A DNA stretch of 34,633 nucleotides from Thermohalobacteraceae bacterium (lineage in GTDB: Bacteria; Bacillota; Clostridia; Tissierellales; VENL01): positions 1 to 34,633 of the forward strand of contig DAOUQG010000004.1 in NCBI GenBank assembly GCA_030625765.1. Reading direction: 5' to 3'. The position numbers and the translations under genes are program-made. The notes below the pieces were generated by a model, which saw only the letters and a list, made by a program, of their open reading frames with translations, searched no databases and was not told the DNA's origin. The first letter of the stretch is position 1; every line of letters begins with the position of its first letter. Positions 3,985 through 32,288 of the stretch are shown here, piece by piece.

Positions 3985-4152
3985 TTGCTACAATTCAAAA
4001 TAAATTTCAAATAATAAATATTAGAAATATAGAGGAAAATTGGGTATAATGTCGAATTGAATACATTATACCTAATTTTATATAAAAAACATTATTTATA
4101 TAATAAAGCAAATATAATATTTTTAAAACGTAATTTAAGGAGGAGATCAGTT

Positions 4153-5916
4153 ATGGGCAAAAGGAGAATTAAAAAATCAACTAAGTTTACTATTAAATCA
4201 AAACTTATTATTGTATCATTCATTATATTAATTATATCTAATCTTGTATTAGGGGTAGTAAGTTATAATATTGCTAAAAAGCAATTGGAACAAAACGGTA
4301 AAACACTACTAAAGAATAGTGTTGAAATGACTTTGCTAGTGATTGATGAAAAACAAAAATTAGTTGAACAAGGTAAGTTAACTCTTGATGAGGCACAAGA
4401 ACAGGTTAGAGAATATATGTTAGGGAAAAAACAAAAAGATGGTACTAGGCCTATTAATAAAAACATATGTCTTGGAGAAAATGGTTACCTGTTGGCATAT
4501 ACTCAGGATGGATATGAGGCAGCTCATCCTATATTAGAAGGTAAGAATGTATGGGAAGCTAAAGATAAGAGGGATGGTTTTTATCTAGTACAAGATCAAA
4601 TCAAAATAGGAAACAATGGGGGAGGTTATCTTACATATTGGTGGAATATCCCTAATTCGGAGGAAATTGCACCTAAAATCACCTATCAAAAAACAGATCT
4701 TCATTGGGGTTGGGTGGTTAGTGCAGGAACATATATGTATGATTTCAATAAAGGGGCAAGCAAAATTTATCAATTTTTGATTATTATATTAGCATCTTCA
4801 TTTATTATAGGAGGATATGTAATTTTCATTTTTGCCCGCCATATATCAGTTCCAATTGGTAAGATCAATCAAGCTATTAATGAGGTGGCATCAGGCAATC
4901 TAAACATTTCAAATTTGAATATTAAAAATAGAGATGAGACTGGTGAATTAAGCAAATCTTTCAATATCATGATTCAAAATATAAGAGAATTGATTAAATC
5001 AGTTAAAGATTCAGTAGATATTGTATTTGAATCTTCAAAATCCTTAGCTGATATAGGGGATCAAAATATAGCTTCTATTAATGAGGTTGCAGTTGCAATT
5101 GAGCAAATTACAGAAGCTGCAGATAAACAAGCAGAAGATACAGAGAATGGAGTAGTTGAAGTTAAGCAATTGGCTGACAAAATTGAAATAGTAGAAGAGT
5201 CTTCTGTTAATACAAATAATATTGCTGTTGAAGCAAGTGAGTTGAGTAAAAAAGGAATAAATGTTGTTAAATTACTTATGGAAAAATCGAATGAAAACAG
5301 TATTGCTACAACAAAAGCAAATGACATAATTCAAGAAATGAATAAAAGCTCAATTGAAATAGAAACAATTACAGAAACTATTAGTCAAATATCTGACCAA
5401 ACTAACTTGTTGGCTTTAAATGCGGCAATAGAAGCAGCTAGGGCAGGGGAACAGGGAAGAGGTTTTGCAGTAGTTGCTGAAGAGGTTAGAAAATTAGCTG
5501 AACAGTCTTCACTAGCTGCTACTAAAGTAAAAGAACTAATAGATGGAATACAAAAAAAATCAAAAACAGCTGTTGAAACTATGGAACAAGGAAAAAAAAT
5601 TGCTGAGAAACAAGATAACGCTGTTGAAGAAACTAAAAATACTTTTAATGGAATATCAAAAGCGATAGACAATATGGTAGAAAATGTAGAAAAAATCAAT
5701 AGTTATAGTATAGATATGGGAGATAAGAAGGGTGAAATAATAGAAATATTTGAGAATTTTTCAGCTTCAACAGAAGAAAGCTCTGCTGCAATACAACAGG
5801 TTTCAGCTGCAATTGAAGAACAGTTGGCTAGTGTACAGCAGATTAATTCTCATACTCAAGATTTTAAAATTCTTGCAGGGCAGCTTGCAGAAGCTATTAA
5901 TAAATTTAATATATAA
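4153..5916 (+). CDS. Methyl-accepting chemotaxis protein with extracytoplasmic Cache domain, HAMP and MCP signalling domain
   Basis: Start at 4153 preferred (RBS AAGGAGGAG) over ORF-track start 4057; TM, Cache-like [23 protein letters not shown], signalling tip [43 protein letters not shown]. Confidence 0.93.
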
Positions 5917-10524: not shown

Positions 10525-11175
10525 ATGAAAAATAAGCTAACTAATAAAGAAATCAAAAATGTTCTAAATATATTACGTGATATGTATCCAAATGCAAAAT
10601 CAGAACTTAATTTTTCAAATGCTTTTGAACTATTAGTTGCTACAATATTAGCTGCTCAATGTACAGATGTAAGAGTGAATAAGGTAACTAGTGAATTATT
10701 CAAAAAATATAGAAACCCACATGATTTTCTAAAATTATCTCAAGAAGAATTAGGTGAGCTTATTAAAAGCTGTGGGTTTTATAAAAATAAAAGTAGAAAC
10801 ATACTAAAAACATGTGAAATACTAGTGAATGAATATAATGGAGAAGTACCTGACACAAGAGAACAATTGGTGAAACTGCCAGGAGTAGGAAGAAAAACAG
10901 CTAATGTGGTCATAAGCAATGCCTTTGGAAAACCAGCAATAGCAGTTGACACCCACGTTTTTAGAGTTTCAAACAGAATTGGTTTAGCTTCCAGTGAAAA
11001 CGTAACAGATACAGAAAAGGACTTGATGAAAAATATAGTAGAAGAGGATTGGTCTGATGCTCATCATTGGTTGATTTTTCATGGAAGAAGAGTTTGCAAC
11101 GCAAGAAAACCTAAGTGTGAAGCTTGTCCATTGACTCAATATTGTTTGTATTATAATAATGTAATAAATAAATAG
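10525..11175 (+). CDS. nth: Endonuclease III
   Basis: LLVATILAAQCTDVRVNKVT, LPGVGRKTANVV HhH, VDTHVFRVSNRIG, C-x6-C-x2-C-x5-C FeS motif. Confidence 0.96.
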   Translation: MKNKLTNKEIKNVLNILRDMYPNAKSELNFSNAFELLVATILAAQCTDVRVNKVTSELFKKYRNPHDFLKLSQEELGELIKSCGFYKNKSRNILKTCEILVNEYNGEVPDTREQLVKLPGVGRKTANVVISNAFGKPAIAVDTHVFRVSNRIGLASSENVTDTEKDLMKNIVEEDWSDAHHWLIFHGRRVCNARKPKCEACPLTQYCLYYNNVINK

Positions 11176-11264
11176 AATATTGATTTTTTTTGTCAAATAA
11201 AAAGGGAAAAAGTACCTTCATAGAGAATAAATTTATTATGAATTTAATAAAAGAGGTGTTTATT

Positions 11265-13307
11265 ATGGATACTACTAATTTAAGAAATATTAATGATGAT
11301 GAGCTAGTATTTTCATTAGATATAGGAACAAGAACAGTTATTGGTGTTGCTGGAATATTTGAAGATAATAAGTTTAAAATATTAGCATCAGAAATACTCG
11401 AACATCAAGAAAGAAGTATGTATGATGGTCAAATACATGATATAAGTGGCGTAACCAAAATTACTAAAAAGGTTAAAGAACGAATAGAAACTAAGCTTGG
11501 AAGAAAGCTTGAAAAGGTATCAATTGCAGCTGCAGGAAGAGCTTTAGAAACAATCAGAGTTGAAGTAGATAGACAAATCGATATTTCTAAAGAAATAAGT
11601 AAAAGATTGGTTGAAAGCTTGGAAATGGAAGCAATTCAACATGCTCAAGAGATGCTTGAAAAAAAATCTGCAAAAAAAGAATCTCAGTATTATTGTGTTG
11701 GTTATACAGTAATTAATTATTACTTAGATGACAATATTATTGAAAACTTAGAAGGGCATAAAGGGTACAAAATATCTGCTGATGTACTAGCAACTTTTTT
11801 ACCACATACAGTTGTAGATAGTCTTTATACAGTAATGAATAGAGTTGGATTAGAGGTTGTGAATCTTACTCTTGAGCCAATAGCTGCAATAAATATTGCT
11901 ATTAAGAAAAGCCTGAGGCTTCTCAATTTAGCATTAGTTGATATTGGAGCTGGAACGTCTGATATTGCTATTACAAAAGATGGTTCAATAATTGCTTATG
12001 CAATGGCTTCCATCGCAGGAGATGAAATAACAGAAAAAATTGCAAAAACATTTTTATTGGATTATGATGTAGCAGAAAAATTGAAGATTAGTCTATCTAC
12101 GGATGAGAATCACAAGTTTTATGACGTTGTTGGAATTGAACATAATTTATCTACTGAAGAAATACTTGATAGAGTAAAGGATTCAATTGAAGAACTAGCA
12201 AGAGAGATAAGTGATAAAATACTTAAGTATAACGAAAAGGCTCCTAGTGTTATTTTTCTAATTGGAGGAGGAAGTCAAATAGCTACCTTACCAAAATTCA
12301 TAGCTAATTTTCTAGATATGCCTGAGGTAAGAGTAGTTGTAAGAGACACTTCAATAATAGAGGATGTAGAAGGTATACCAGAGAATCTTAAAGGTCCTAA
12401 TGCGATAACACCATTAGGTATTGTAAAAGCAGCAATAGATAATCAATATAAGGATTTTCTTGAAATTGTTATAAATGGACAAAAGATTAAGTTATTCAAT
12501 TCAAAACAATTAAAGGTTTCGAATGCATTAGTTTTAATCGGTTATAATCCAAGAAATCTTATACCTAAACGAGGCGAGGATTTTGTCTATTACTTAAATG
12601 GTGAAAAGAAACGAATTAAAGGTGAGGTTGGAGAACCGGCCAAAATATATGTAAATGGGAAACAAGCTAACCTTGAATATCGTTTGTTAAATGGGGATGA
12701 TATCACAGTTGAAGAATCACTTCAAGGTCAGAAGGCTAAGTCACCAATGCTTAATGATTGTATAAATATAGACAAGACTGTATTATTAAATGATAATGAA
12801 ATAAAATTAATAGAGTTTATTAAAGTAAATGGAGAGATAATAACTGATAATGTTTTAGTGAACGAAGAGGATGAAATTGAATTAAGAGAAATAAATAACA
12901 TAGCTAAATTATTTGAAATACAGGGATTAGAGTTCGAGAATTTTAATGTAAGTGTTAATGGTGAAGAAGTAGACAATAGTTATGAGTTGCAAAACGGTGA
13001 TGTTATTACAACGGAAATGACTAACAAAGGAAAGAATGAAAAACCTAATACTATATTAGATAATAGTATTTCAGAAGGCAATAAAACTATAAGATTGATT
13101 ATTAATAACGAAGAAAAGATTTTTAAATACAATAAAGATAAATTTATTTTTGTGGACATATTTAATTATATTGATTTTAATTTGTCTAAATCTAATGGAA
13201 TAATTATACTTAAAATAAACGGAAAGAAAGCAGAATATATACAAGAACTCAAAAATGGTGATAATATAGAAATTTATTGGGAAAAAGAAATTTCAAAAGC
13301 ATATTAA
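11265..13307 (+). CDS. FtsA-like actin-fold ATPase with extended C-terminal repeat region
   Basis: VFSLDIGTRTVIGVAG, ALVDIGAGTSDIAITKDGSIIAYAMASIAGDEIT, IFLIGGGSQIATLPKFIANFLDMP; start 11265 preferred (AAAGAGGTG RBS) over 11190; repeated VNG...NGDxI units in about the last 280 aa. Confidence 0.85.
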   Translation: MDTTNLRNINDDELVFSLDIGTRTVIGVAGIFEDNKFKILASEILEHQERSMYDGQIHDISGVTKITKKVKERIETKLGRKLEKVSIAAAGRALETIRVEVDRQIDISKEISKRLVESLEMEAIQHAQEMLEKKSAKKESQYYCVGYTVINYYLDDNIIENLEGHKGYKISADVLATFLPHTVVDSLYTVMNRVGLEVVNLTLEPIAAINIAIKKSLRLLNLALVDIGAGTSDIAITKDGSIIAYAMASIAGDEITEKIAKTFLLDYDVAEKLKISLSTDENHKFYDVVGIEHNLSTEEILDRVKDSIEELAREISDKILKYNEKAPSVIFLIGGGSQIATLPKFIANFLDMPEVRVVVRDTSIIEDVEGIPENLKGPNAITPLGIVKAAIDNQYKDFLEIVINGQKIKLFNSKQLKVSNALVLIGYNPRNLIPKRGEDFVYYLNGEKKRIKGEVGEPAKIYVNGKQANLEYRLLNGDDITVEESLQGQKAKSPMLNDCINIDKTVLLNDNEIKLIEFIKVNGEIITDNVLVNEEDEIELREINNIAKLFEIQGLEFENFNVSVNGEEVDNSYELQNGDVITTEMTNKGKNEKPNTILDNSISEGNKTIRLIINNEEKIFKYNKDKFIFVDIFNYIDFNLSKSNGIIILKINGKKAEYIQELKNGDNIEIYWEKEISKAY

Positions 13308-13415: not shown

Positions 13416-14807
13416 ATGAATTTTATTGCTAATAGAAGGTTTTTGCTTGTTATATTGATTTTTATTATATTTATTATGATTGTTTTTGTTGCTACTTCAT
13501 ATGCCTTCTTAAATAAGACAACCATTTATTGTGGAATAAAGGTTAATGGAATAGATATTAGTGGGTTAGGCAGGATAGAGGCAGTTAAGCACTTAAGTAG
13601 TTTACTTAGTGATGAGTTCAATAATCGTGTGCTAAAATTTAAATATGAGGATTATGTATATAAAGTAAGATATGAAAATTTAGGGGTATCTTACGATTAT
13701 TATAAGAGCATTAATAATGCATATAAAATAGGAAGACAAGGCAATGTAGTAGAGAGACTGAATGAAATTTTAAAAACAAAGATTTATGGTCAGGATATCT
13801 CATTAGGTGTAATATTCAATGAAGATAAAGTAAATTTCATAATAGAACAGATTAGGAAGGATATATGTATTAAGAGTGAGGATGCGAAAATTTCTTATAG
13901 TAATTATTCTTTTAAAATAGTTCCTGAGGTAGTTGGTAAAAAAGTTGATGTAGAATTATTAAGAAAAAGAATTATTAACGCAATATTAGATTCAGAAGAG
14001 GTTGTAATACCAGTAGAAAATGAAATTCCTGAAATTACAGAGAAGCTTCTTTCTAAAATACAATATCCTATTGGAGAGTACTCAACTTATTTTGGTGGAA
14101 GTAATGAAGCTAGAAAAAATAATATTAGGATATCAGCTCTCAAGATTGATGGAGGAATCATTCTTCCAGGGAAGATTTTTTCATTTAATAAAGCAACTGG
14201 AGTAAGGAATAAAAATACAGGATATATGGAATCAAAGGTTATCAAGGATGGGAAATTTGTTTTTGACGTAGGAGGAGGAGTGTGTCAAGTTTCCACTGCG
14301 CTATATAATGTAGCGCTTTTGTCAAATTTAGATATAGTTGAAAGACATCATCATTCTATTCCTGTGAGTTATGTGCCCAAAGGAGAGGATGCTACTGTAT
14401 CTTATGACTATTTGGATTTGAAAATAAGAAATAATTACGATTTTCCTTTGTATATACATATAGATATACAAACAAATCGTTTGACTTTTAGAATTTGGGG
14501 GTGTAAAACAGAAGCTAATAAAAATATTCAGATTATTTCAATTTTAAAGGAAACCATTAAGCCTAATGTAGAAAAAATAATATTAGATACATTAGCTCCT
14601 GGTACAAGAATTGTTCTTCAAGAGGGTAGATGTGGATATAAAGTAGAAACCTATAGAGTTATTTATGAAAATGGGCAAGAAATAAGTAGAGAACTCATTT
14701 CTCAAGATTATTACAAGCCTAGAGATTATATTATAAAAATGGGACCAGAACCTACTATAGGAAAAAGTATCTATGAAGACAATTCTCAAGGTATATTGAT
14801 TCAATAG
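13416..14807 (+). CDS. VanW family protein (N-terminal TM, YoaR-like)
   Basis: AAGGGGG RBS; TM segment; GKIFSFNKATGVRNKNTGYMESKVI...VGGGVCQVSTALYNVALLSNLDIVERHHHSIPVSYVPKGEDATVSY. Confidence 0.93.
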   Translation: MNFIANRRFLLVILIFIIFIMIVFVATSYAFLNKTTIYCGIKVNGIDISGLGRIEAVKHLSSLLSDEFNNRVLKFKYEDYVYKVRYENLGVSYDYYKSINNAYKIGRQGNVVERLNEILKTKIYGQDISLGVIFNEDKVNFIIEQIRKDICIKSEDAKISYSNYSFKIVPEVVGKKVDVELLRKRIINAILDSEEVVIPVENEIPEITEKLLSKIQYPIGEYSTYFGGSNEARKNNIRISALKIDGGIILPGKIFSFNKATGVRNKNTGYMESKVIKDGKFVFDVGGGVCQVSTALYNVALLSNLDIVERHHHSIPVSYVPKGEDATVSYDYLDLKIRNNYDFPLYIHIDIQTNRLTFRIWGCKTEANKNIQIISILKETIKPNVEKIILDTLAPGTRIVLQEGRCGYKVETYRVIYENGQEISRELISQDYYKPRDYIIKMGPEPTIGKSIYEDNSQGILIQ

Positions 14808-14829
14808 AAACAAATTGGGGGTGAAAAAA

Positions 14830-15492
14830 ATGGACGATCTTTATGATAAAAAAATAAAGTGTCCTGTTTGTGATATGCAGTTCTCTTCAAAAAGGGTTAG
14901 AAGATCAAAGCTAAGAATTGAGAAAAGAGATAGTGACCTATTTACATATTATAAGGGAGAAAACCCTGTAAAATACGGTGTATATGTGTGTCCAATGTGT
15001 GGGTACGCAGCAACCGAAGAAAAATATTCAAAGGTTAATGATGAAGAAAGAAGTGTTATTAGAGAAAAAGTTACGACAAAATGGAAAGAAAGAGAATTTT
15101 CTGGAGTTCGAAGTGTGGATGAATCAATAATATGTTACAAATTGGCACTATATTGTGGTGAAGTTTTGTCATTTAAGAAATTGTATTTAGGTAATATATG
15201 TCTTAGATTAGCATGGTTATTTAGGATTAAGAATGATGATGATAATGAAAAAAAATTCTTAGATTTTGCATTAAAATTGTTTGACGAAGCTTATATGCAA
15301 GAATCCATAGCAGGTTCTTCTTTGGATGAAATTACTCTTACATATCTTTTAGCTGAGTTAAATAGGAGATTAGGAAACAGAGATAAAGCTATATCTTGGT
15401 TTAGTCAAGTAGTGTCTCATCCAATGATCGACACAAAACCTAACATAAAAAAATTAGCAAGAGAACAATGGAATTTAGTTAGACAAAGATAA
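14830..15492 (+). CDS. DUF2225 family protein (zinc-ribbon-like, TPR-like C-terminus)
   Basis: MDDLYDKKIKCPVCDMQFSSKRVRRSKLRIEKRDSDLFTYYKGENPVKYGVYVCPMCGYAA; start 14830 after GGGGGTG RBS. Confidence 0.85.
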   Translation: MDDLYDKKIKCPVCDMQFSSKRVRRSKLRIEKRDSDLFTYYKGENPVKYGVYVCPMCGYAATEEKYSKVNDEERSVIREKVTTKWKEREFSGVRSVDESIICYKLALYCGEVLSFKKLYLGNICLRLAWLFRIKNDDDNEKKFLDFALKLFDEAYMQESIAGSSLDEITLTYLLAELNRRLGNRDKAISWFSQVVSHPMIDTKPNIKKLAREQWNLVRQR

Positions 15493-19368: not shown

Positions 19369-20310
19369 ATGAGAGAAAAAATTGGTATTCTAATGAATAA
19401 TATTAATAAAGTTATTGCTGGAAAGGAAAATGTTATAAGAAAAATATTGGTTTGTCTTTTATGTAGAGGGCATATTCTACTTGAAGATGTACCAGGAGTT
19501 GGTAAGACAACAATGGTAAATACTCTAGCTAAATCCCTTAATTTAGCATTCAACAGAATACAATTTACTCCAGACTTGTTACCTTCAGATGTAACTGGAA
19601 TATCTATCTATAACCCAAAAATCAATCAATTCGAATTTAAAAAAGGACCAATTTACAACAATATTGTTTTAGCAGATGAAATAAATAGAACTTCTCCAAA
19701 AACTCAATCAAGCTTACTAGAAGTAATGCAGGAAGGTCAATTAACAGTTGATGGTAACACATATAAAATACCTAAACCTTTTATAGTATTAGCTACTCAA
19801 AACCCTATAGAGTATGAAGGTACTTTTCCTTTACCGGAAGCACAATTAGATAGATTTATGATGAAGATATCAATTGGATATCCTGATAAAACTAGTGAAA
19901 TGGAGATTCTAAGAAGGTTTAGTAATAGTAATCCTTTAGATGAAATCAACTCTGTATTAACTGATAAAGATATTTTTGAGATGCAGCAAGAGGTTGATAA
20001 TATTCATGTAGACGAGTCAATAGATAATTATATTATTGATATAGTGTCGAAGACTAGAAATCACGAAAATATCAGACTGGGAGTAAGTCCTAGAGGTGCA
20101 ATTGCATTATTCAAAACTGCAAAAGGGTATGCATATATTAATAACAGAAGCTATGTTTTACCAGATGATGTTAAAAAGCTTGCTGCCGAAGTCTTATGTC
20201 ATAGAATTATTTTAACACCTGAAGCAAAGATTCAAGGAATTAGTGAGGAGAGCGTATTATATGATATTTTAAAAAATACAAGAGTTCCAGTGGTGAAAGG
20301 AAATGACTAA
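19369..20310 (+). CDS. MoxR-family AAA+ ATPase
   Basis: AGGAGGAG RBS; HILLEDVPGVGKTTMVNTLAKSL Walker A; DLLPSDVTGISIYNP; VLADEINRTSPKTQSSLLEVMQEGQ. Confidence 0.95.
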   Translation: MREKIGILMNNINKVIAGKENVIRKILVCLLCRGHILLEDVPGVGKTTMVNTLAKSLNLAFNRIQFTPDLLPSDVTGISIYNPKINQFEFKKGPIYNNIVLADEINRTSPKTQSSLLEVMQEGQLTVDGNTYKIPKPFIVLATQNPIEYEGTFPLPEAQLDRFMMKISIGYPDKTSEMEILRRFSNSNPLDEINSVLTDKDIFEMQQEVDNIHVDESIDNYIIDIVSKTRNHENIRLGVSPRGAIALFKTAKGYAYINNRSYVLPDDVKKLAAEVLCHRIILTPEAKIQGISEESVLYDILKNTRVPVVKGND

Positions 20311-21487
20311 AAAAAAGATATTTTCTATAGTATTATTTACTACATTTCTAATATTTGCATTATTTGTGGGTGGAGGATTTCCTTATTTACTTCTAATTAT
20401 TACAATTATGATATATGGCTACTCATATTATTCAGTAAGAAAGATTAGCAAAGGTTTAAATGGTATATTTTGGACTGACAAAGCATTCCTTAAAAAAGGT
20501 GAAATTGCAAATATTAGCTACAAAATCTATAACAGCTGTTTTATTCCACTTGTCTACGCAGAAGTTGAGGTTGACATCCCAAAAAGATTAACCAATCAAA
20601 AGAACGAAAAAAATGTTCATGAATTAAAACCTTATAGCACACTTAATTTTATCAAAAAACTTACTTGTGACCATAGAGGAATATTTGATGTTGGAGTAGT
20701 TAACATAGAAACTGGAGATATTTTTGGATTATTTAGAAAGAAGATAGTTGTAAAAGATAATCTTCAGCTTACAGTATACCCTAAAGTGCATAAGTTAGAT
20801 AGTTTTACTATTACAGGAACCGAATTTTTTGGGTCTATACCAACAACTCAAAAATTCTATGAAGACTATACAAGTATAAAAGACTTAAGGAAATATCAGG
20901 TCGGTGATAGTTTAAAGAAGGTAAATTGGAAAGTAACTGCTAAACGAGGAGATTTGTTTGTCAAAAATTATGACATATCTACAAATGTGGAGATACAGCT
21001 ATTTTTAGATTTCCAAATTGATAAATATAAACATGATACATATGGATATGTTGAAGAAAAAATAGTTGAATGTGTCGTAAGTATTATTCACTACTCATTA
21101 TATAATAGAGTGAATACTGATTTTATTACTTACACAGAAAAAAAGGTTCAGCTTCATGGCAAAGATAGCAGTATGTTTAACAAATTTTTAGAAATGGCAG
21201 TAAGAATCAGACCTAAAAAGAACATTAGTCTTGGTGATGTAATTATAAATGAGTCTAGAGCTTTATCACCAGGAACCTCTATAATTATTGTTACACCTGA
21301 ACTAGATAAAAAGTTAATCTCTGCAATACTAAAGCTTAAGAAACTAGGCTATAGTGTTATTTTAATAATTGTAAATGACTTTCAAAAATATAAGAATATA
21401 AATAAAGGTATTGATATTTTAGAAAAGACAGGTGTAAATATATATAAAATAGACATTGAAGATAACATTACGAATGTATTGAGGTGA
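20303..21487 (+). CDS. DUF58 domain protein
   Basis: Overlaps the moxR end (8 nt); YTSIKDLRKYQVGDSLKKVNWKVTAKRGDLFVKNYD. Confidence 0.93.
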   Translation: MTKKKIFSIVLFTTFLIFALFVGGGFPYLLLIITIMIYGYSYYSVRKISKGLNGIFWTDKAFLKKGEIANISYKIYNSCFIPLVYAEVEVDIPKRLTNQKNEKNVHELKPYSTLNFIKKLTCDHRGIFDVGVVNIETGDIFGLFRKKIVVKDNLQLTVYPKVHKLDSFTITGTEFFGSIPTTQKFYEDYTSIKDLRKYQVGDSLKKVNWKVTAKRGDLFVKNYDISTNVEIQLFLDFQIDKYKHDTYGYVEEKIVECVVSIIHYSLYNRVNTDFITYTEKKVQLHGKDSSMFNKFLEMAVRIRPKKNISLGDVIINESRALSPGTSIIIVTPELDKKLISAILKLKKLGYSVILIIVNDFQKYKNINKGIDILEKTGVNIYKIDIEDNITNVLR

Positions 21488-21491
21488 TTAG

Positions 21492-23795
21492 ATGAGCTCA
21501 AAAAATAAAATAATTAGTTTTACTTATAAATTAATAATTAATACTTTTATAAACTATTTTCTTATTAGCTTATTATTAGATTACTTAGAAATAGAAAATA
21601 GCTGGGTTAATACGTTTATAATATTTAGTGCTTCAATAAGTTCGGTGTGTGTATGGAGATTGGTTATTAAAAAACCTTGGATCTTAGGTATTTTCTTGGG
21701 TTTATTAACATGTGGGATTATATATATGTACAATTTTCAGAATTCAATTTACTTTAGTATGATAGATGTTATCAATGATTTTATGGATTGGTCATATCGA
21801 TTCATAACTGGATTAACTTTTTTACATGTGCCTAATTTTAGGATTTTATTAGGGTTAATAGTATTTGTTCTTTCACTTATTACAAGCATGCTTGTTTTTA
21901 GTGTTAAAAGGATGTATTTCTTATTCATCATTGGTACACCAATATTTATGATTAGATGGTTTCAGTATTCTGACAATGCTTTAATTCACTTTATTTTTTA
22001 TATAATGTTTGTATTGATGCTATATACGTTCAACAGATATACTCAAATGGAATCATCTTGGATAAGCAGTAAAAAAATCATCAAATCTAATATTTTCAAA
22101 TCATGGCTGATATACTCTAGTATTACTTGCATATCTATTGTACTTATATCGGCCGTTTTACCAAGAAATTTTATTCCTGTTTCGTCAAGATGGTTGGATG
22201 ACAAAATTCAAAGCAACTTTCCTTTTTTAGGTGAATGGAGAAATAATAGCATGAAATCACGTGGCTATGGGGATGAAATGAAATTTGATTTGTCTTTTAC
22301 AGATTTTCAGGATAGTTATAAGCGATTGGGAGGACCCATTAAACTAAAAAATATTTTGGTTATGACTGTTAGCAGTAAACAGCCAGTCTATTTAAAGGGT
22401 AGAGCAAAGGATTTTTATACTGGCTCATATTGGAAGTCGTCAGAGGAAACTTTTTATGAAGAGGTTATGGGAAGCCCTAATACTTTATACGAGAAAAATA
22501 AAGTAGATGGGAAGCATATAGCTGTAACAATTACACATAAGAATATTGTAACATCAACGCTTTTTAATTCATTTATCCCTAAAAATATCGTAATGGACAA
22601 GAGTTTTTATTATATGACAAAATCACTTGAAACTTTTAAAGAGAATTTAGTGATTAAGGATAAAAGATATACAGTTTTTTCTGTAAATCCATATATTGAT
22701 TGGGAAAAGGTAAAAGCTTCAAATTTCAAATTTGATAGGGATTCATTAGATTATTGGGATGAGGATTATGTCGATAGAAATCTTCAAATTCCAGAAGGTC
22801 TGCCAGATAGAATTCATTTATTAAGCTATAATATTTCAAGAGGTAATAAGAGTGATTATGAAAAGGTTAAGGCTTTAGAAAATTATCTTAGAAGCAATTA
22901 TAAATATAGCTTAAGTCCGCCAGAAACTCCTTTCAATAAAGATTTTGTAGATTATTTTTTATTTGAGTTAGAAGAAGGATATTGTACATATTTTGCATCT
23001 TCATTAGTTATTATGGCAAGAAGTTTAGGTATTCCAGCTAGATATGTTGAAGGGTATAAGATTTCAAGTGACAGTAATAAAACAAATGAAGAATATTTAG
23101 TATATAGTAAAGACGCTCATGCATGGCCAGAGGTTTATATAGAAGGATATGGATGGATGATTTTTGAACCTACTCCTGGGTATGAAAATATAGTCTATGA
23201 GGAAAAAATGAATGTAGATGAAGAAATAGCAAAAGAAGACAAAAGTGAGAGATATAGAAATCGATTTTTTGAGAAGGATTTATCAGAATTATTAGATTCA
23301 GATTTTGCTTTTGAAATGGAGTTCTCTCAAGAAAATGAAAATACAAATAAATCACAATATGTCAAAGCTATAATATATTCTATTGCTGTTTTTTCAATAC
23401 TAGTACTAGTTTTATTAATAGTATTCTGCTTCAATTTTATTAGAATAAAGTTAATATTCAAGCAAATATCCAAAAAAAGTTATAAGGAAAAAATATTAAA
23501 CTATTATAGATTTATATTAAATTTATTAGATATAGCTAATAACGGTAAGGATGAAGGTGAAACACCTAATGAATATTGTAAGCGGCTAAAACTAAATGTT
23601 TGGGAAGGGAAATATAATTTTAAAAATACTACAGAAATTTTTAATAAAGCTAGATATGGCGAAAGAGGTATTACAAGTGAAGAATTTGAGAATGTGAAAG
23701 AGTATTATCTAAAAACTGAAAAAAATACTTTAAAAAAAATAGGGATTATAAGATTTATCATATATAAATATTTTATGATGAGAATATATAAATAG
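21492..23795 (+). CDS. Membrane protein with transglutaminase domain (TgpA-like)
   Basis: Multiple TM; EEGYCTYFASSLVIMARSLGIPARYVEGY, DAHAWPEVYIEGYGWMIFEPTPGY catalytic Cys/His/Asp. Confidence 0.95.
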   Translation: MSSKNKIISFTYKLIINTFINYFLISLLLDYLEIENSWVNTFIIFSASISSVCVWRLVIKKPWILGIFLGLLTCGIIYMYNFQNSIYFSMIDVINDFMDWSYRFITGLTFLHVPNFRILLGLIVFVLSLITSMLVFSVKRMYFLFIIGTPIFMIRWFQYSDNALIHFIFYIMFVLMLYTFNRYTQMESSWISSKKIIKSNIFKSWLIYSSITCISIVLISAVLPRNFIPVSSRWLDDKIQSNFPFLGEWRNNSMKSRGYGDEMKFDLSFTDFQDSYKRLGGPIKLKNILVMTVSSKQPVYLKGRAKDFYTGSYWKSSEETFYEEVMGSPNTLYEKNKVDGKHIAVTITHKNIVTSTLFNSFIPKNIVMDKSFYYMTKSLETFKENLVIKDKRYTVFSVNPYIDWEKVKASNFKFDRDSLDYWDEDYVDRNLQIPEGLPDRIHLLSYNISRGNKSDYEKVKALENYLRSNYKYSLSPPETPFNKDFVDYFLFELEEGYCTYFASSLVIMARSLGIPARYVEGYKISSDSNKTNEEYLVYSKDAHAWPEVYIEGYGWMIFEPTPGYENIVYEEKMNVDEEIAKEDKSERYRNRFFEKDLSELLDSDFAFEMEFSQENENTNKSQYVKAIIYSIAVFSILVLVLLIVFCFNFIRIKLIFKQISKKSYKEKILNYYRFILNLLDIANNGKDEGETPNEYCKRLKLNVWEGKYNFKNTTEIFNKARYGERGITSEEFENVKEYYLKTEKNTLKKIGIIRFIIYKYFMMRIYK

Positions 23796-30859: not shown

Positions 30860-31001
30860 CAATTGATTTTTGTGCAAAAAAATAATGAGTTGAATTTATT
30901 AACTTAACTTGCTTTAAACTGTAAATGCATTAAATTATGCAAATACATTTAAATATTAATTTTTATCTGCTTATTTGGAAATACTAAGAGGAGGTGAACC
31001 T

Positions 31002-32288
31002 ATGCGTTTAGAATTAGGAAACATTCTTATTAAGGATGTTCAGTTTGGTGAAAAAACAAAAGTAGACAATGGCATTTTATTTGTAAACAAAGAAGAGATT
31101 ATCAGCTTAGTTAGAGAGGATGATAATTTCATAAGTGTTGAAGTTGAATTGGCAAGACCTGGTGAAAGCATAAGAATTACTCCTGTAAAGGATGTAATTG
31201 AGCCAAGAGTTAAAGTTGAAGGACCTGGAGGGATTTTCCCTGGGTTCATGTCAAAGGTTGATACTGTTGGATCTGGAAGAACTCATGTTTTAAAGGGTGC
31301 AGCTGTTGTTACAACTGGTAAAGTAGTAGGTTTTCAAGAAGGTATTATTGATATGACAGGACCTGGTGCTGACTATACACCTTTCTCACAGCTTAATAAT
31401 GTTGTGTTAGTTTGTGAACCAAAGGATGGATTAAAGCAGCATGATCATGAAAGAGCCTTAAGAATGGCTGGATTAAAGGTTGCTGTATATCTTGGAGAAG
31501 CTGGAAGAAATGTTACTCCAAATGAGGTTAATGTATATGAATCATTACCTTTACTAAAGAGTATAGAAAAATATCCAAATCTTCCAAAGGTAGCATATGT
31601 TCAAATGCTTCAAAGTCAAGGATTATTACATGATACTTATGTATATGGTGTAGATGCTAAGCAAACACTATCTACATTAATTAATCCTACAGATATAATG
31701 GATGGAGCTATTATTAGTGGTAACTGTGTTTCTGCATGTGATAAAAACACAACTTATCATCATCTAAACAACCCAATTGTTCATGATTTATTTGAAAAAC
31801 ATGGCAAGGAAATCAATTTTGTTGGTATGATAATTACAAATGAAAACGTTTATCTTGCCGATAAAGAAAGATCTTCAAACTGGGCTGCAAACTTAGCTGA
31901 GTATATTGGAGTAGATGGAGTAGTTATATCACAAGAAGGATTTGGTAACCCAGATACTGATTTAATTATGAACTGTGTTAAGATTGAGAAAAAAGGTATT
32001 AAGACTGTTATTGTTACAGACGAATATGCTGGAAGAGATGGAGCATCTCAATCATTAGCTGATGCTGATCCATTAGCTGATGCAGTTGTAACTGGTGGTA
32101 ATGCAAATGAAGTAATTGAGTTACCTCCAATGGATAAAATCATTGGATATACTGAACCTGTTAATAGTATTGCAGGTGGATTTGATGGAAGCTTAAGGGA
32201 AAATGGTTCAATAGTAGTTGAACTACAAGCAATAACAGGAGCTACAAATGAACTTGGCTTTAATAAATTATCAGCTAAAGGCTTCTAA
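31002..32288 (+). CDS. grdE: Glycine/sarcosine/betaine reductase component B proprotein (pyruvoyl precursor)
   Basis: RLELGNILIKDVQFGEKTKVDNGILFVNKEE; GNCVSACDKNTTYHHLNNPIV processing-site region; AGGAGGTGA RBS before 31002. Confidence 0.95.
   Translation: MRLELGNILIKDVQFGEKTKVDNGILFVNKEEIISLVREDDNFISVEVELARPGESIRITPVKDVIEPRVKVEGPGGIFPGFMSKVDTVGSGRTHVLKGAAVVTTGKVVGFQEGIIDMTGPGADYTPFSQLNNVVLVCEPKDGLKQHDHERALRMAGLKVAVYLGEAGRNVTPNEVNVYESLPLLKSIEKYPNLPKVAYVQMLQSQGLLHDTYVYGVDAKQTLSTLINPTDIMDGAIISGNCVSACDKNTTYHHLNNPIVHDLFEKHGKEINFVGMIITNENVYLADKERSSNWAANLAEYIGVDGVVISQEGFGNPDTDLIMNCVKIEKKGIKTVIVTDEYAGRDGASQSLADADPLADAVVTGGNANEVIELPPMDKIIGYTEPVNSIAGGFDGSLRENGSIVVELQAITGATNELGFNKLSAKGF

Follow-up and report, generated by a model that had tools for sequence, protein, structure and literature searches.

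A stretch of 34,633 nucleotides (hereafter the window) on contig C163 of a 2.68-Mb draft genome of a Thermohalobacteraceae bacterium encodes, beside a VanW protein, a 680-aa protein that starts as an FtsA-like actin and ends in a repetitive tail. Bacterial actins of the FtsA/PilM line have known roles in division and type IV pili, and the question raised by this locus is which of these roles, if either, belongs to this protein, which we name FtsA2 here, and what its tail is made of.

FtsA2 is an FtsA-type actin outside the division locus

The open reading frame that holds ftsA2 spans 11190..13307 on the + strand (TTG start, 705 aa). Since aligned orthologues favour the ATG at 11265, we preferred this start, giving a 680-aa protein with the following parts:

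11265..13307, + strand: ftsA2 gene, FtsA-type actin core plus ubiquitin-like tail (680 aa, stop included in the coordinates)
11265..12440, + strand: FtsA-type actin core, aa 1-392, with IC subdomain and nucleotide loops (Pfam, TIGR01174, Foldseek)
12453..12719, + strand: beta-grasp unit 1, aa 397-485, complete ubiquitin-like fold with an inserted hairpin (Ub-Mut7C, models, motif)
12744..12893, + strand: beta-grasp unit 2, aa 494-543, minimal (models, motif)
12894..13022, + strand: beta-grasp unit 3, aa 544-586, minimal (TGS and S4 profiles match its last hairpin; models)
13080..13286, + strand: beta-grasp unit 4, aa 606-674, complete ubiquitin-like fold with an invariant Trp near its end (models, conservation)

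A sequence-only reading of this DNA had proposed an FtsA-like ATPase domain, and Pfam (FtsA, 8.5e-13; also PilM_2 and MreB), TIGR01174 and Foldseek all agree on an FtsA-type actin fold. The TIGR01174 (FtsA) model covers aa 15-388 at 106.4 bits, below its curated equivalog cut-off of 175.85, and TIGR01175 (PilM) gives 56.3 bits, below its curated cut-off of 133. When the AlphaFold model of FtsA2 was used as a Foldseek query, the first 19 matches were all FtsA structures (for example 7q6i, E 2e-29, TM-score on the target 0.84), with PilM structurally next. Both nucleotide loops, LDIGT (aa 18-22) and DIGAGTSD (aa 226-233), are kept intact across 26 orthologues. A sequence search of the PDB found relatives for the actin part only and none for the tail.

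A canonical FtsA (426 aa) is encoded separately in this genome, immediately upstream of ftsZ. As the first reading had it, ftsA2 is indeed encoded beside a VanW gene and not with ftsZ, and FtsA2 is not the only FtsA of its genome. Phylogenetic analyses placed the FtsA2 proteins in a single clade (support 92/98) apart from 16 canonical FtsA proteins (94/99), with both clades on long stems and the place of the outgroup unsure; Sporosalibacterium is the nearest named relative in the tree. The positions of E. coli R300, which we take to be an FtsZ-docking residue, and of E303 are 100% and 94% conserved in the 16 canonical FtsA proteins and variable in 31 FtsA2 proteins. E303 is an FtsZ contact in E. 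coli FtsA (PMC13423804). The models of FtsA2 end in a strand (aa 667-673) followed by a short low-confidence end, with no C-terminal amphipathic membrane helix. Because FtsA2 forms its own clade and both FtsZ-docking residues tested are gone, a function distinct from that of division FtsA, already suspected from the sequence, is likely.

The FtsA2 tail is built from beta-grasp units

The four VNG...NGDxI repeats reported after the actin domain are real: the tail contains exactly four copies of the motif [VI]NG-x11-[GE]D-x-I, all in a single register, at aa 463-480, 521-538, 564-581 and 651-668 (window 12651-12704, 12825-12878, 12954-13007 and 13215-13268), and the 11,628 aa of the other open reading frames of the window contain none. 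Among 20,000 shuffled tails, none had more than one copy and only 6 had one, a count that is illustrative since the pattern was composed after the units had been seen; the weight is carried by the structure and profile results.

Predicted structures show an ordered tail, both in the full-length AlphaFold model (mean pLDDT 82.8) and when the tail was folded alone on 66 homologues (mean pLDDT 91.9), so that a disordered tail or linker was rejected. By the secondary structure of the models, units 1 and 4 contain every element of the ubiquitin-like fold (beta-beta-alpha-beta-beta). In unit 2 the hairpin is followed by strand 3 with no central helix in between, and unit 3 has no first hairpin of its own. 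The view of the repeats as four domains thus holds in full for two units, the other two being minimal. Among solved structures, the tail best matched linear tetra-ubiquitin (4e-7), followed by a multi-ubiquitin protein of E. coli (3.6e-6). TM-scores of the whole tail are low (0.15-0.2), which we read as a different arrangement of the domains. Pfam searches with the 66 tails gave ThiS, Ub-Mut7C and TGS as the closest families, matched by 49, 45 and 40 tails, and SLBB in none: of the beta-grasp/TGS or SLBB-like folds first suggested, beta-grasp stood and an SLBB-type tail was rejected. A conjugated ubiquitin-like modifier was also rejected, as FtsA2 ends in IEIYWEKEISKAY and has no C-terminal Gly-Gly. 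In some orthologues the tail is shorter, at about 190-230 aa, and the number of units therefore varies.

Genes next to ftsA2

Three neighbours of ftsA2 recur in related loci:

10525..11175, + strand: nth, endonuclease III, conserved upstream neighbour
13416..14807, + strand: VanW protein with a short basic N-terminus, one membrane segment and PG_binding_4, VanW and G5 domains, candidate membrane partner
14815..15492, + strand: DUF2225 protein (Pfam 1.5e-71), strongest co-occurring partner

The order nth-ftsA2-vanW-DUF2225 is frequent, with ftsA2 separated from nth by a median of 57 bp and from vanW by a median of 90 bp. Among 80 related loci, 48 have nth immediately upstream of ftsA2, which is probably synteny only, and 26 have vanW as the next gene downstream. 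In 13 loci ftsA2 is followed by a GAF-GGDEF diguanylate-cyclase gene (median gap 34 bp), and 8 loci have a PilZ gene a few genes upstream. Two genomes, G053 and G058, have ftsA2 flanked on both sides by flagellar and chemotaxis genes (fliD, cheB, cheR, cheA; cheD, cheC, fapA, flgG-type, flhA). The gene immediately before it encodes a FlhB C-terminal homologue in both, and a PilZ gene comes after it in G053; in G194, ftsA2 adjoins a methyl-accepting chemotaxis protein (MCP) gene and a flgC-fliF operon. Pfam supports the names FliD, CheA, FlhB C-terminal, PilZ, CheC, FapA, FlhA, MCP, flagellar rod C-terminal domain and FliF, and the remaining flagellar and chemotaxis names were read from sequence. 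This flagellar neighbourhood occurs in two families only, with ftsA2 within the cluster in one and next to it in the other, and the two may count once because they are perhaps sisters in the tree (support 96/26), and in most loci the neighbours of ftsA2 are housekeeping genes.

Elsewhere among these loci, dephospho-CoA kinase (CoaE) and FtsA2 form a single open reading frame of 968 aa in G154 (L143:6492-9395), and in the related G082 (L134) the CoaE frame overlaps the start of ftsA2. Farther along the window itself we observed a methyl-accepting chemotaxis protein with sCache_2 and HAMP domains (4057-5916), consistent with a motile organism; consecutive genes for a MoxR AAA ATPase, a DUF58 protein and a transglutaminase-core protein (19369-23795), an ordinary MoxR-type cluster; and a glycine/sarcosine/betaine reductase component B subunit (30975-32288) of amino-acid fermentation.

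FtsA2 co-occurs with flagella and DUF2225

Relatives of FtsA2 were collected by an alignment-based search of genome contigs, a single-sequence search having found none. This gave at least 586 candidate loci, mainly from Clostridia, and the best 80 of them include Desulfotomaculum-type lineages and a few Paenibacillus. Ruminiclostridium cellobioparum and Clostridium intestinale are among the carriers. The Paenibacillus proteins (L101, L113) nest with Natronincolaceae of Clostridia in the tree, which suggests lateral transfer. FtsA2 is carried by 33 of 60 relatives at the level of the order and by 53 of 196 genomes at the level of the class.

Five markers were scored on these same 196 class genomes, as raw counts uncorrected for kinship, and their phi values with FtsA2 were 0.09 for SpoIVA, 0.20 for canonical FtsA, 0.56 for PilT, 0.66 for FlhA and 0.85 for DUF2225. 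FlhA, which marks the flagellar export gate, is found in 51 of the 53 carriers against 32 of the 143 other genomes ([[51,2],[32,111]], p 2e-22, kinship uncorrected), and DUF2225 in 49 of 53 against 8 of 143 ([[49,4],[8,135]], p 8e-33, likewise uncorrected); 56 of the 57 genomes with DUF2225 have FlhA. Counting families instead (190 of the 196 genomes were typed to family from tables), FlhA is present in 15/15 families with FtsA2 and 16/51 others (p 1e-6), and DUF2225 in 13/15 and 1/51 (p 7e-11). Neither association was part of the earlier reading. The link between ftsA2 and DUF2225 is more than adjacency, since families f24, f42 and f52 have the two genes on separate contigs or at a great distance from each other. 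At the order level, FlhA is found in 32 of 33 carriers, the exception being G003. The ftsA2 gene of this genome, the order's sole carrier without FlhA, is frame-broken (G003:C237:569-2371). Because 32 class genomes with FlhA lack FtsA2, FtsA2 would be at most accessory to flagella.

PilT is also present in 51 of the 53 carriers. Among genomes with PilT, FlhA still tracks FtsA2 (p 8e-7), and among genomes with FlhA, PilT hardly does (p 0.05). Canonical FtsA (E <= 1e-45) was found in just 50 of the 196 class genomes, and 114 have neither FtsA nor FtsA2.

A proposed motility-linked platform and its alternatives

From the pattern of co-occurrence, we infer a link of FtsA2 to motility. Our preferred explanation is that FtsA2 is an ancient FtsA paralogue, standing beside FtsA and PilM, that has gone from the division machinery, and that it serves flagellar motility as an ATP-switched, actin-like envelope platform with a docking tail; we hold this joint reading to be about evenly balanced between right and wrong. 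Its sharper form, a dedicated motility actin recruited together with DUF2225 and the VanW protein to position or anchor flagella in Clostridia by means of a polyubiquitin-like docking arm, is plausible but falls somewhat short of an even chance.

By analogy, a wall-binding protein with a single membrane span would insert its short cytoplasmic tail into the cleft between subdomains IA and IC of FtsA2, as the bitopic partner does in FtsA-FtsN and PilM-PilN (PMC7613929). The best candidate would be the VanW protein encoded next door, which resembles such a partner because it has a short basic N-terminus, one membrane segment and peptidoglycan-binding, VanW and G5 domains. The beta-grasp tail may then act as a docking arm for cytoplasmic clients, DUF2225 being the first candidate and the c-di-GMP and flagellar proteins encoded beside FtsA2 in some lineages being others, and the outcome would be that FtsA2 places or stabilises the motility machinery at the envelope. 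DUF2225 itself has been connected to motility: a 2025 preprint reports, from phylogenetic profiling, conservation of a DUF2225 gene among spiral spirochaetes, and finds that Leptospira biflexa with this gene inactivated was less motile in semisolid medium but unchanged in growth and shape (PMC12236494).

The alternative that survives best is a general envelope or cell-wall scaffold of free-living rod-shaped Clostridia, made of the actin-like protein and its VanW wall-binding partner, with flagella associated indirectly through lifestyle and genome reduction. The 26 of 80 loci with vanW directly downstream, the correlation of PilT with FtsA2 and the many flagellated genomes without FtsA2 all speak for it. 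Genome size alone is insufficient, however, as more than 20 sampled genomes of at least 2.5 Mb lack both FlhA and FtsA2, and the closest partner of FtsA2 is DUF2225, a motility factor in Leptospira; we give this explanation roughly one chance in four.

That FtsA2 is a second division FtsA, or a stand-in where canonical FtsA is missing, tethering FtsZ or division enzymes, is unlikely. Its fold is complete, and in 32 of the 53 carriers no FtsA passes the curated cut-off for the canonical protein (G199, which belongs to these 32, encodes a divergent FtsA at 1.3e-44), but the equivalents of R300 and E303 are gone, there is no membrane helix and canonical FtsA is commoner in carriers (21/53) than in other genomes (29/143). 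The presence of the two proteins is therefore not complementary, 114 genomes have neither, and replacement of a missing FtsA was rejected.

A PilM-like platform for type IV pili is more improbable still. Although nearly all carriers have PilT and PilM is structurally next after FtsA, the PilM score of FtsA2 is 56 bits against a cut-off of 133, no pilus operon surrounds ftsA2 in the window or in related loci, and the genome has a separate PilM-type protein near pilT (C118). The effect of PilT is also weak once FlhA is held fixed; the correlation is mostly explained by the shared presence of flagella and a pilus role was set aside. Lastly, a sporulation-specific FtsA paralogue is very improbable: SpoIVA is found in 31 of 33 carriers among the 60 relatives, but this strong association within the order is absent at the class level (43/53 against 103/143, p 0.27) and FtsA2 is kept in seven sampled f42 genomes, six of which lack SpoIVA, so that this role was rejected.

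Significance and comparison with known systems

If the motility explanation is true, FtsA2 would add, to our knowledge, a further cytoskeletal role to the FtsA/PilM line beside division and pili. These actins would gain a further branch in a large and widespread family that retains the fold, has lost the FtsZ-docking residues, has acquired a polyubiquitin-like tail and co-occurs with flagella and DUF2225. The family also opens an experimental way into DUF2225, whose recently reported role in motility has no known mechanism, and it warns that annotations as 'cell division protein FtsA' can mislead in Clostridia, many of which have no true FtsA. Searches of the open-access literature found no named FtsA paralogue like this one, whether from Clostridia or tied to flagella, and an earlier description may exist elsewhere.

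Four known systems can be set beside FtsA2. LEPBIa0550 of Leptospira belongs to the same DUF2225 family as the window gene at 14815-15492 and was found by phylogenetic profiling with motility; the result concerns DUF2225 and not FtsA2, involves no Leptospira FtsA2 and, in the available part of that preprint, comes with no mention of a link to an FtsA paralogue (PMC12236494). The FtsA2 tail is like ThiS, Ub-Mut7C, TGS and the bacterial multi-ubiquitin proteins (PDB 9cd2) in that it matches their profiles and tandem-ubiquitin structures, whereas its units are fused to an actin, lack the terminal Gly-Gly and are minimal in two cases out of four. With PilM (TIGR01175), FtsA2 shares an FtsA-type fold with an IC subdomain and a gene adjoining that of a single-pass envelope protein, as the PilM gene adjoins the PilN gene, but it scores below the PilM cut-off, its neighbour is VanW instead of PilN, it has no pilus operon and it carries a tail. 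With FtsA (TIGR01174/PF14450), which gives the best Foldseek matches, it has in common the whole actin fold including the IC subdomain and the nucleotide loops; in contrast to it, FtsA2 stays below the curated cut-off, has lost the FtsZ-docking residues, forms its own clade, is not encoded beside ftsZ and has a beta-grasp tail in place of the C-terminal amphipathic helix.
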